Source of the DNA: Olleya aquimaris | GTDB lineage: Bacteria; Bacteroidota; Bacteroidia; Flavobacteriales; Flavobacteriaceae | Assembly: GCF_003259525.1 (NCBI RefSeq) | Contig: NZ_QLLO01000001.1 | Coordinates: 124,001-188,000, forward strand | DNA: 64,000 nt | Reading direction: 5' to 3' | Shown: positions 999-3,517 of the stretch, one piece after another | How positions within the stretch are numbered: the stretch's first letter is position 1 | Layout of the letters: every line of letters starts with the position of its first letter | Notes under the pieces: model-generated | The model's input: the letters and a program-made list of their open reading frames with translations, nothing else | The model's database searches: none | What the model was told of the DNA's origin: nothing | Position numbers and translations under genes: made by a program

Positions 999-1742
999 TT
1001 GCAAATCCCATTCAACCCTCAGCTATTTGGTTATGATATAAACATTCATCTTGTTTTAGAATACCTCGCATTCTTTTTAGCCTTTAGATATTATGTGATT
1101 TTAAGACGAAAAATTACAGACAAAATCAATACAAATAACCGTTTGTCCATCATTCTTGGAGCAGCATTAGGTGCTCTAATTGGTTCTAGGTTAATTGGTT
1201 TTTTAGAAAATCCTTTAATCGAATTCTCTCAGCAAAATCTAATACAATTACTTAACACTAAAACCATAATGGGTGGCTTATTTGGAGGTTTACTTGGTGT
1301 TGAAATAGCTAAAAAGATAATTAACGAAAAACAGTCGTCAGGAGATTTGTTTGTTTTCCCTATAATTTTAGGCATTTTTATTGGTCGTATAGGTTGCTTT
1401 TTATCTGGAATTAACGAGTTTACTTATGGTCTCGAAACTTCATCAATTTTTGGTATGGATTTAGGAGATGGTTTATTGAGACACCCAACATCTTTGTACG
1501 AGCTAGTTTTTTTAGTACTGCTGTTCTTCATTTTAAAACGTATAGCTTCTCATTTCACTTTAAAAAATGGTGACTTATTTAAGCTGTTTATGCTAAGCTA
1601 TTTTGGATTTCGATTTTGTATCGAATTTTTAAAACCAAATATATTTTACATTTTTGGGTTAAGTACCATTCAAATTTTATGTGTAATTTGTTGGTTGTAT
1701 TATAGTCCTTTTATCTTTCAAAAACTAAAACATGCCAGTTAG
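999..1742 (+). CDS. Lgt-like (prolipoprotein diacylglyceryl transferase family) membrane protein, divergent
   Basis: A 247-residue polytopic membrane protein resembling Lgt, which moves diacylglycerol from phosphatidylglycerol to lipoprotein cysteines. Lgt landmarks are present: a GSRLIG segment, GGLFGGLLG, GRIGCF, LRHPTSLYE and, near the C-terminus, FRFCIEFLKPN. Compared with my recollection of Escherichia coli Lgt, the Arg/Glu of the last motif remain, but the catalytic-loop His (SFHGG) reads TIMGG, and the invariant Asn of GRIGN is Cys. It may therefore not be the housekeeping Lgt. The start is TTG at 999, the only plausible initiator. The 3' end overlaps the radical SAM gene by 11 nt, which implies translational coupling and a shared task, probably on lipid. 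A plain but divergent Lgt cannot be excluded. Confidence 0.8.
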   Translation: MQIPFNPQLFGYDINIHLVLEYLAFFLAFRYYVILRRKITDKINTNNRLSIILGAALGALIGSRLIGFLENPLIEFSQQNLIQLLNTKTIMGGLFGGLLGVEIAKKIINEKQSSGDLFVFPIILGIFIGRIGCFLSGINEFTYGLETSSIFGMDLGDGLLRHPTSLYELVFLVLLFFILKRIASHFTLKNGDLFKLFMLSYFGFRFCIEFLKPNIFYIFGLSTIQILCVICWLYYSPFIFQKLKHAS

Positions 1743-3126
1743 AAAATATACCTATTACGATTTTACTTTAAGTCTCTGTCCAGAGTGTTTACGACGTGTA
1801 GATGCTAAAATAGTCTTTGAAGATGGCAATGTTTACATGCTAAAACGTTGTAAAGAACATGGTAACACTAAAGTGTTAATTGCAGACGATATCGAGTATT
1901 ACAAAAACATACGCAACTACAATAAACCTAGCGAAACACCTTATACTTTTAACACCAAAACCGACTATGGTTGTCCATACGATTGTGGTTTGTGTCCAGA
2001 CCATGAGCAGCACAGTTGCTTAACAGTTGTAGAGGTCACAGATAGGTGTAATTTAACTTGCCCAACCTGTTATGCTGGCTCGTCGCCAACCTATGGACGA
2101 CATCGTACCTTAGACGAAGTCAAAGCGATGTTAGACACTATTGTTAGTAACGAAAAGGAACCTGATGTTGTACAAATTTCTGGTGGAGAACCAACCATAC
2201 ATCCTCAGTTTTGGGAAATTATGGACTACGCAAAATCCTTACCTATTCGACATTTAATGTTGAATACTAATGGAATTAAAATAGCTAAAGATGTCGCTTT
2301 CGCGGAAAGACTAAAAACCTACGCTCCAGATTTTGAAATCTATTTACAATTTGATTCGTTTGAAAACAGCGTTTTGCGCGAATTACGTGGTGCAGATTTA
2401 AATGACATCCGTAAACAAGCAATTGAAAACCTGAACAAATTAAACCTATCAACTACTTTGGTAGTCACGCTTCAAAAAGGATTAAATGATGGTGAAATAG
2501 GAAAAATTATTGACTACGCATTGAAGCAAAAATGTGTTAGAGGTGTCACCTTACAACCAACGCAAATAGCAGGACGATTAGAGCATTTTAATCCAGAAAC
2601 GGATCGCATGACTTTAACAGAAGTACGTAGAAAAATACTGGAACAAACCAACGTTTTTAATCCAGACGACCTGCTTCCAGTACCTTGTAATCCTGATGCT
2701 TTGGTTATGGGTTATGCACTTAAATTAGAGGACGAAGTGTTTCCGCTAACACGCTATATTAACCCAAATGATTTGTTAGATAATAGCAAAAACACGATTA
2801 TTTATGAGCAGGACGAACAGCTTCAAGACAAAATGATTGAGTTGTTTAGTACAGGTAACTCGGTTGAAGTTGCGGAAGAAAATCTAAAATCTATTATGTG
2901 TTGTCTGCCGGATATTGATGCCCCACATTTGGGTTACGATAATTTGTTTAGAGTGATTATTATGCAATTTATTGATGCTTATAATTTTGATGTTAGAGCC
3001 ATTAAAAAATCTTGTGTACATATTGTAGATAAAGACAATAAAATTATCCCTTTTGAAACTATGAATTTGTTTTACAGAGATAATAAAAAAGCACGTTTGG
3101 AAGAACTTAGAAATGAAGTGATATGA
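1732..3126 (+). CDS. Radical SAM protein of the Tes/MJ0619-like family
   Basis: A 464-residue radical SAM enzyme. The canonical cluster motif CNLTCPTC (Cys106, 110, 113) is followed by ISGGEPT (about 149-155) for SAM binding. It is preceded by further cysteine motifs: CPEC (16-19) with RCKEHG (Cys40, His43), and CPYDCGLC with a downstream HSC (Cys81, 85, 88, 96). This layout is that of the archaeal tetraether lipid synthase (Tes, MJ0619) and its bacterial homologues, which form C-C bonds between or on lipid chains using several iron-sulfur clusters. A conserved CCLPD segment lies near residue 391. The ATG lies inside the Lgt-like gene (11-nt overlap), and its stop overlaps the next small gene. 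Whether it couples, methylates or otherwise alters lipids is inference. Confidence 0.85.
   Translation: MPVRKYTYYDFTLSLCPECLRRVDAKIVFEDGNVYMLKRCKEHGNTKVLIADDIEYYKNIRNYNKPSETPYTFNTKTDYGCPYDCGLCPDHEQHSCLTVVEVTDRCNLTCPTCYAGSSPTYGRHRTLDEVKAMLDTIVSNEKEPDVVQISGGEPTIHPQFWEIMDYAKSLPIRHLMLNTNGIKIAKDVAFAERLKTYAPDFEIYLQFDSFENSVLRELRGADLNDIRKQAIENLNKLNLSTTLVVTLQKGLNDGEIGKIIDYALKQKCVRGVTLQPTQIAGRLEHFNPETDRMTLTEVRRKILEQTNVFNPDDLLPVPCNPDALVMGYALKLEDEVFPLTRYINPNDLLDNSKNTIIYEQDEQLQDKMIELFSTGNSVEVAEENLKSIMCCLPDIDAPHLGYDNLFRVIIMQFIDAYNFDVRAIKKSCVHIVDKDNKIIPFETMNLFYRDNKKARLEELRNEVI
2295..2308 (+). repeat. Copy 1 of 14-bp motif CGCTTTCGCGGAAA
   Basis: The motif lies inside the radical SAM gene and encodes part of V-A-F-A-E-R. 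The identical 14-mer occurs at 21902-21915 (minus) and 53438-53451 (plus), each time read as Ala-Phe-Ala-Glu in the same codon phase. Confidence 0.7.
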
Positions 3127-3138
3127 ATGTTTTAATAG

Positions 3139-3149
3139 AAGGAGGTGAT
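3139..3149 (+). promoter_or_regulatory. Near-perfect Shine-Dalgarno sequence
   Basis: AAGGAGGTGAT is complementary to the 16S anti-SD core, with GGAGG ending 10 nt before the ATG at 3156. Flavobacteriaceae rarely use SD sites, and I saw no comparable one elsewhere here. It also encodes Glu-Gly-Gly-Asp if translation begins at 3123. Confidence 0.4.
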
Positions 3150-3155
3150 TATACA

Positions 3156-3323
3156 ATGGTAATATTAATAGTCTTATTAATAATGTTTGGCATTCCTGTT
3201 ATTTTAAGTCTTATTGCATTCTTTTTAAAAAACAAAAAGCCTAAAACAGCAAAAGTTTTAGGAATAATTGCGTTAGTATATTTAATAATTAGCTTAGGCT
3301 ATTGTGGAGTTTTAGCAATATGA
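3156..3323 (+). CDS. Small two-helix membrane protein, tandem copy 1
   Basis: A 55-residue protein of unknown function with two hydrophobic helices separated by a basic KNKKPKTAK loop. It ends LGYCGVLAI and closely resembles the next gene. I prefer the ATG at 3156 over the ATG at 3123, which overlaps the radical SAM stop and would add a short polar extension. The sequence AAGGAGGTGAT at 3139-3149 lies at ribosome-binding distance from 3156, unusual in this phylum. It is co-directional with, and practically fused to, the Lgt-like/radical SAM operon, so it may assist that pair in the membrane. No known domain is recognised. Confidence 0.6.
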   Translation: MVILIVLLIMFGIPVILSLIAFFLKNKKPKTAKVLGIIALVYLIISLGYCGVLAI

Positions 3324-3517
3324 TAAATCTAGAAGTAAACTTAGACGGAATAGTAGAAATGATGCTAGCCATGATGTTTGGTCCAGCAATAATTTTAGCT
3401 TTAATTGGATTTGTACTACAAAAACGAAATAAAAAAGCAGCAAAAGTCTTTTTTATACTTGCTGTTACTTATGTTATTGTAAGCCTAGGTGTTTGTGGTG
3501 TTTTGATGACGCAATAA
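3320..3517 (+). CDS. Small two-helix membrane protein, tandem copy 2
   Basis: A 65-residue paralogue of the preceding gene. It has the same two-helix plan, a basic QKRNKKAAK loop between the helices, and a matching second helix ending LGVCGVL where copy 1 has LGYCGVL. The ATG at 3320 overlaps the TGA of copy 1 (ATGA), a typical coupled junction; an upstream TTG at 3302 would fall inside copy 1 and is less likely. The 3' end overlaps the convergent DUF4345 gene by 33 nt. Function unknown; a tandem duplication inside the radical SAM operon is clear. Confidence 0.65.
   Translation: MINLEVNLDGIVEMMLAMMFGPAIILALIGFVLQKRNKKAAKVFFILAVTYVIVSLGVCGVLMTQ

Follow-up and report, generated by a model that had tools for sequence, protein, structure and literature searches.

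A stretch of 64,000 nucleotides (nt) from Olleya aquimaris (assembly GCF_003259525.1, contig NZ_QLLO01000001.1, positions 124,001 to 188,000; hereafter the window) carries on its forward strand four overlapping genes, which encode a divergent Lgt-like membrane protein (LgtX), a Tes-type radical SAM enzyme and two small membrane proteins with a cysteine in the tail. That LgtX, the radical SAM enzyme and the small proteins make up one module with three working parts is well supported; the basis for this is the set of three genes, which is conserved and whose members co-occur, together with a fusion found in nature, the residue patterns, the folds predicted for the proteins and the distribution of charge around the tail. 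As to the function, we favour at roughly even odds (about 0.5) that LgtX lipidates the tail cysteine of the small proteins and that the radical SAM enzyme acts on the lipid tail. The initial annotation had read the first two genes as a lipid-modification pair, in which a lipid handled by the Lgt-like protein is altered by the radical SAM enzyme. The coupling of the two is stronger than the data then at hand could tell, and the cysteine-tailed proteins had been missed; these turn the idea of an altered lipid into a testable model of protein lipidation.

The gene for LgtX (999..1742, 247 amino acids, TTG start) overlaps by 11 nt with that for the radical SAM enzyme (1732..3126, 464 amino acids), and both open reading frames (ORFs) lie where the initial annotation had placed them. 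The first small gene (3123..3323, 66 amino acids) starts over the stop of the radical SAM gene with a 4-nt overlap (ATGA), and the second (3320..3517, 65 amino acids from the ATG at 3320, with an alternative longer reading from a TTG at 3302) likewise overlaps by 4 nt with the stop of the first. Their tails, SLGYCGVLAI with Cys61 and SLGVCGVLMTQ with Cys59, have the cysteine at the predicted outer end of the last membrane helix, and both proteins are proposed as substrates. The genome contains one match to the radical SAM enzyme of the module type (E <= 1e-20) and, on another contig, one further Lgt with the canonical His and Asn. This separate canonical Lgt, for which the initial annotation had suggested looking, rules out that LgtX is the sole Lgt of the genome, and the conservation of the pair described below rules out that the two enzyme genes are chance neighbours.

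That the first gene is Lgt-like was already proposed and is borne out by Pfam, where LgtX matches the LGT family with 93 bits (cut-off 24.9). It reaches only 48.4 bits against the NCBIfam lgt equivalog (cut-off 118.9) and stays under the cut-offs of all three NCBIfam Lgt models matched, as do all four LgtX proteins tested. For the AlphaFold model (predicted local distance difference test, pLDDT, of 88 from 63 sequences) the E. coli Lgt structure 5azb is the sole PDB match at E < 0.001, with a template modelling (TM) score of 0.55. We aligned 105 Lgt-like proteins, 33 from the window's phylum and 72 from a wider contig collection with some genomes represented in both sets, to E. coli Lgt; a protein split over two frames in a metagenome-assembled genome (MAG; L185) and the fusion described below (L190) were left out. 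In E. coli numbering G142, R143, G154, E202, Y235 and R239 are invariant, so that R143 and R239 are each found in 105/105. The column of H103 contains no His at all (Val in 68, Met in 26, others in 11), that of N146 has Cys in 104 proteins and Asn in one, and His and Glu each occupy 94 of the 105 positions at Y26 and Y30, respectively. His, Glu and Cys occur jointly in 92 proteins, and eight members have GCC (GCCYG type) in place of the His-Glu pair, seven of them with Tyr26. In the window protein the three residues are H17, E21 and C133, M91 stands at H103, and R130, G144, Y201 and R205 correspond to the retained R143, G154, Y235 and R239. The Met and Cys substitutions are thus those first noticed in the sequence, although in a smaller alignment the H103 column of LgtX is a gap and not Met. 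The canonical Lgt set of that smaller alignment has 19 rows, of which 16 are truly canonical, with three cut N-terminally; the non-canonical rows are a 38-amino-acid fragment (L116) and two proteins of another Lgt type (L106, L108). In the latter two the H103 position is occupied by Tyr and the N146 position by Cys, which marks them as yet another kind of Lgt-like protein, and their genomes (G262, G168) have no match to the module radical SAM enzyme.

Whether the catalytic residues are retained, a question left by the initial annotation, has a divided answer. LgtX shares with E. coli Lgt (5azb/5azc) the Pfam family, the fold, an HP.xLYE motif and the residues R143, E202, Y235, R239 and G154, but lacks H103, has N146 changed to Cys and in most members Y26 and Y30 changed to His and Glu, so that the four lost positions are replaced by a fairly consistent set. 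According to PMC13251419, the residues essential in E. coli Lgt are Y26, H103, R143, N146, G154 and R239, and PMC4728403 likewise names H103 as essential. The former also reports that some proteins accepted as Lgt have another residue at H103 and that N146C is known in distant ones, including L. interrogans Lgt and M. smegmatis MSMEG_5408, the latter with Y26H and N146C and presumed to be of low activity. These two resemble LgtX as far as their published description goes, which is the basis of the comparison. Because both changes are known in other Lgt proteins, neither loss of H103 nor N146C is unique to the module, and N146C alone is not new. Judged by its sequence, LgtX is a separate Lgt lineage which keeps the lipid-binding arginines.

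The second gene product matches the Pfam families Radical_SAM (89 bits) and HMPTM zinc ribbon (72 bits) as well as the crystal structure 7tol of the archaeal lipid enzyme Tes/GDGT-MAS (MJ0619) with E = 3e-70. Its AlphaFold model (pLDDT 85 from 50 sequences, residues 369-396 poor) superimposes on GDGT-MAS 7tom with a TM score of 0.80 over 497 columns. The motifs C16x2C19x20C40x2H43, C81x3C85x2C88 and C106x3C110x2C113 can be set beside the rubredoxin motif C9x2C12x20C33x2H36, the N-cluster cysteines and the CX3CX2C motif of Tes, as given in PMC9433317. All three, the rubredoxin, N-cluster and radical SAM cysteine motifs, are invariant or nearly so among 50 radical SAM proteins of the module, and the Tes-like cysteine layout noted at the outset holds at three of the four Tes metal sites. 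Despite this likeness in fold and motifs, the enzyme differs from Tes in being paired with LgtX and small proteins and in being almost always bacterial, and it remains below the NCBIfam cut-off for Tes (NF045702, 450 bits) with 293.1 bits, just like six other module enzymes (269-306 bits). The best NCBIfam match in all seven tested is the TrsS radical SAM (seleno)protein (NF045646), yet again every one is under the cut-off of 490 bits (331.5 for the window enzyme, 314-369 for the others). By its fold and its family likeness to Tes, the enzyme may alter a lipid.

The third part of the module became visible when the surroundings of the enzyme genes were read. Among 36 other stretches from the window's phylum, 29 contain by eye a small membrane ORF with a cysteine tail, located downstream of either the radical SAM or the Lgt-like gene, or else between the two. 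No such ORF was seen in the other seven, namely L075 (contig end), L078, L094-L097 and L098. In a set of 61 non-redundant loci (radical SAM proteins below 85% identity) an automatic search within 2 kb found such an ORF in 41 loci, compared to 7 of 61 in antisense. Reading by eye raised the number to 51, after two spurious hits were dropped (L095, L165), eight loci added (L091, L093, L122, L124, L131, L139, L156, L170) and four Proteobacteria loci included in which the cysteine follows the first helix (L159, L165, L187, L195); this revision was applied to the sense loci, and the seven antisense hits stand as the automatic count. A stricter search of the 61 loci considered only the ORF right after the radical SAM gene and used a stricter hydrophobicity rule. 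Six loci were too near a contig end and 15 had no small membrane ORF at this place, while the tail was present in 22 of the remaining 40 ORFs versus 19 of 384 ORFs taken from random places in antisense.

The small genes of relatives evolve as coding sequence (ratio of nonsynonymous to synonymous substitution rates, dN/dS, of 0.02-0.24 in seven pairs), and the proteins are strongly divergent with the cysteine kept. From the loci we collected 73 tails, which were picked for having the cysteine and hence describe its surroundings but not the frequency of the tail. The fraction of Lys and Arg is 0.190 before the helix and 0.044 after the cysteine, and the latter lies 3-16 residues from the C-terminus. 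This charge pattern suggests that the cysteine is on the outer side. As in lipoprotein signal peptides, a positive region is followed by a hydrophobic stretch and a cysteine on the predicted outer side; different from lipoproteins, the cysteine is mostly near the C-terminus and the residue before it is not restricted to G, A or S.

The linkage of the two enzymes is strong. In a survey of 395 genomes of the phylum, with thresholds of E <= 1e-20 for the radical SAM enzyme and E <= 1.2e-29 for LgtX (next match 1.5e-13), both were found in 31 genomes, LgtX alone in one, the radical SAM enzyme alone in three and neither in 360 (Fisher p = 1.7e-41, uncorrected for relatedness of the genomes). One of the three with the radical SAM enzyme alone (G066, G096, G302), namely G096, has the Lgt-like match of 1.5e-13 adjoining it; two genomes (G034, G272) have both enzymes on different contigs. 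The 71 genomes with only matches from 1.5e-13 to 1e-8 were assigned by score to canonical or other Lgt types, and 17 weak-match loci were inspected (13 from those 71 genomes and four second copies in LgtX genomes) in addition to that of G096. The trees of LgtX and the radical SAM enzyme correlate for 51 pairs with r = 0.85, a value reached in 0 of 2000 permutations and to which shared species history contributes.

A similar picture emerges for the small proteins in 149 Flavobacteriaceae genomes, one per genus. Twenty-one genomes have the radical SAM enzyme and as many have a match to the small-protein profile (E <= 1e-6), and in the 20 that these sets share, the two are side by side; the cysteine itself was read only in genomes whose DNA was examined. 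In the radical SAM genome missed by the profile (G504), the enzyme gene is directly followed by one for a small protein that has diverged and ends in GFSMCFGLLAGF. An orphan homologue in G396 (L201:734-943) has, by hand reading, Phe at the cysteine position, and neither LgtX nor the radical SAM enzyme was found in this genome, which is 80% complete. If the enzymes are the sole reason for retaining the cysteine, such a replacement would be expected; this is a single case. G463 (G463:C7:758700-759047) contains a remnant of the radical SAM gene (94 amino acids with a stop) beside a small-protein remnant, with no LgtX found in the genome, which suggests that the parts of the module are lost together. 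Six weaker profile matches (E 3.5e-4 to 0.008) were taken as chance.

The initial annotation had made its proposal dependent on a conserved pairing, and the pairing extends far beyond the phylum. A wider contig scan yielded at least 559 relatives of the radical SAM enzyme, of which the best 80 were kept. The three-part module is found in one archaeal MAG and in no fewer than 11 phyla of bacteria, with MAGs as the source in many cases. The taxa of the 80 are Elusimicrobia, Armatimonadetes, Actinobacteria, Ktedonosporobacter (which we take to belong to Chloroflexota), Firmicutes, Bacteroidetes, Acidobacteria/Vicinamibacteria, Pontiellaceae (counted under the phylum to which it presumably belongs), Cyanobacteria, Spirochaetia, Proteobacteria, Planctomycetes and a Candidatus Thalassarchaeaceae MAG. 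An Lgt-like ORF lies within 6 kb of the radical SAM gene in 74 of these 80 loci; of the six without, five are cut on one side by a contig end beside the radical SAM gene, and in the sixth (L144) there is no Lgt-like ORF in 5.2 kb upstream. In a Phycisphaerales MAG (L190) LGT, zinc ribbon and Radical_SAM are found in one frame of 707 amino acids, all over the Pfam cut-offs, with the radical SAM part joined to the C-terminal end of the LgtX part and Ser at the Cys position (GRLGS). The archaeal contig (L156, 22.9 kb) has an Lgt-like gene, a radical SAM gene and a tailed protein, and wrong binning is possible; according to PMC13251419, archaea have no Lgt.

A second arrangement is found in seven loci (L090-L092, L120-L122, L135), where an ICMT-type methyltransferase gene follows the radical SAM gene and where LgtX, with GCCYG/GCCFG, is followed by a small protein. 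The methyltransferase was recognised by a Pfam match in L090 and L092 and by eye in the others, and its match to the NCBI model for ICMT function is 92.8, under the cut-off of 160. Both loci scanned (L090, L121) also contain a DUF4395 gene. ICMT enzymes act on lipidated cysteines, and the two additional genes suggest a further step on the module product.

The simplest reading of an Lgt lineage of its own, found together with a Tes-type radical SAM enzyme and a kept cysteine in lipoprotein-like geometry, is a module for protein lipidation in which the small protein serves as substrate, and from these analogies the following course can be proposed. The small membrane protein, with a positive loop, about 15 hydrophobic residues and the cysteine at the outer helix end, would insert so that its target helix starts on the cytoplasmic side and the cysteine, mostly near the C-terminus, comes to lie outside. 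LgtX would transfer a lipid group to this thiol on the outer side of the membrane, either diacylglyceryl by analogy to Lgt or an acyl group via LgtX's own cysteine. The radical SAM enzyme, taken as cytosolic, would activate a lipid tail and by analogy to Tes join or functionalise tails, before the transfer or on the lipidated protein. A more specific version appears rather doubtful to us, namely a second bacterial lipidation pathway in which the His-Glu-Cys Lgt lineage lipidates a C-terminal cysteine and the radical SAM enzyme joins the attached tail to another, giving a covalent and possibly membrane-spanning anchor.

Several observations weigh against lipidation of the small proteins by this pair. 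E. coli Lgt cannot do without H103 and N146, so LgtX may not transfer diacylglyceryl. Joining of carbon chains by the radical SAM enzyme is uncertain because Tyr459 and the labile Met439 in the region of the C-terminal cluster, reported to be completely conserved in archaeal Tes, are not kept throughout: by hand mapping the window enzyme keeps Met439 and has Ile for Tyr459, and L090-L092 have Thr in place of the Met. Only 32 of the 73 tails have G, A or S before the cysteine; the motif is no lipobox, and cleavage by LspA, for which one of these residues is expected, is not expected in most tails. The genome with LgtX alone (G017, L096) has no match to the radical SAM enzyme and no tailed small protein within 3.5 kb of LgtX. 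By eye no tailed protein was found in 10 of the 61 loci (L075, L078, L094, L095, L123, L136, L144, L164, L168, L178). In five of these the radical SAM gene is near a contig end (L075, L123, L144, L164, L178), L094 and L095 are without LgtX, the enzymes are apart in L078, and L136 has a masked stretch; L168, L078 and L136 lack the tail despite several kb of flank. Finally, the strict rule found no tail in 18 of the 40 ORFs right after the radical SAM gene, which by eye are seven methyltransferases of the second arrangement, two spurious ORFs and nine ORFs with a cysteine that fail the hydrophobicity cut.

The alternative which survives best, though we regard it as unlikely, is that LgtX and the radical SAM enzyme make an unusual membrane lipid, with the small proteins as helper subunits that hold or hand over lipid and the cysteine in a structural role, e.g. 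pairing with Cys133 of LgtX. The radical SAM enzyme is indeed nearest in fold to a lipid enzyme, LgtX has a conserved cysteine of its own, and Zeng et al. (PMC8941075) noted bacterial Tes homologues and proposed that they make membrane-spanning lipids; Lloyd et al. (PMC9433317) point out that the bacteria with such homologues are not known to produce chains of this kind. Up to five divergent small proteins per locus (five in L175, four in L140), some with an extra N-terminal domain (B-box in L154; by eye zinc-ribbon-like in L186 and EF-hand-like in L156), speak against it, because several substrates fit divergent multiple copies and extra domains better than does one subunit. In addition, outside the cysteine the commonest residue at any tail position accounts for at most 0.47 of the 73 tails, which is also unfavourable for a helper subunit.

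It is still less probable that LgtX works through a thioester at a Cys-His-Glu centre (C133, H17, E21) and, as an acyltransferase, passes a fatty acyl group to the target cysteine instead of diacylglyceryl. The joint presence of the three residues in most LgtX proteins fits such a centre, as does their position, as in E. coli Lgt hydrogen bonds connect Y30 and N146 within a single network and Y26 is located in the central cavity (PMC4728403). Against it stand the eight members with GCC that do not have the His-Glu pair, and the Lgt-typical arginines kept in LgtX.

A system similar to those for ribosomally synthesised and post-translationally modified peptides (RiPPs), in which the radical SAM enzyme directly modifies the small protein at or near its cysteine while LgtX serves as a membrane scaffold with no catalytic role, is improbable. 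RiPP loci typically combine a radical SAM enzyme with small, divergent proteins that share a conserved cysteine, and two essential Lgt residues are lost in LgtX, but other conserved Lgt residues are kept, the model of the enzyme matches the RiPP enzymes SkfB and SuiB with TM scores of only 0.36-0.39 (mostly over about 213 columns) versus 0.80 for Tes, the charge pattern puts the cysteine outside, and in the fusion the radical SAM enzyme follows the C-terminus of LgtX, an end that lies in the cytoplasm in E. coli Lgt.

The two enzymes are relatives of known families; the module as such fits no system known to us. No description of it was found in the literature titles and abstract openings listed, a search which left preprints and most subscription journals outside its coverage; PMC8939145 was set aside, as its mention of diacylglyceryl is unrelated to the module. 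Should lipidation of the small proteins by LgtX be true, bacterial protein lipidation would extend beyond the N-terminal Lgt-Lsp-Lnt route, and bacterial Tes homologues of the module clade would act with a protein partner. In genomes of this kind an annotation as "Lgt" or "Tes" is a poor guide to the capacity for lipoproteins or tetraethers.

The NCBIfam lipo-invert tail NF058595 was considered as a name for the small proteins and rejected, as the scores are far under its cut-off of 37 bits: scanned module proteins reach at most 13.9 bits and the window's small genes 13.7-15.6 bits, the upper value coming from the search of their own genome. Equally weak matches occur at other places of that genome, and each of the 14 control genomes has some as well. 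Three Paenibacillus loci (L153, L154, L166) encode, upstream of LgtX, a tailed protein of a second kind. It has a B-box-like zinc domain (by Pfam in L154, the one scanned), one helix and the tail TICGA..FSY, and tails similar to this type are also found in L191 and L198.

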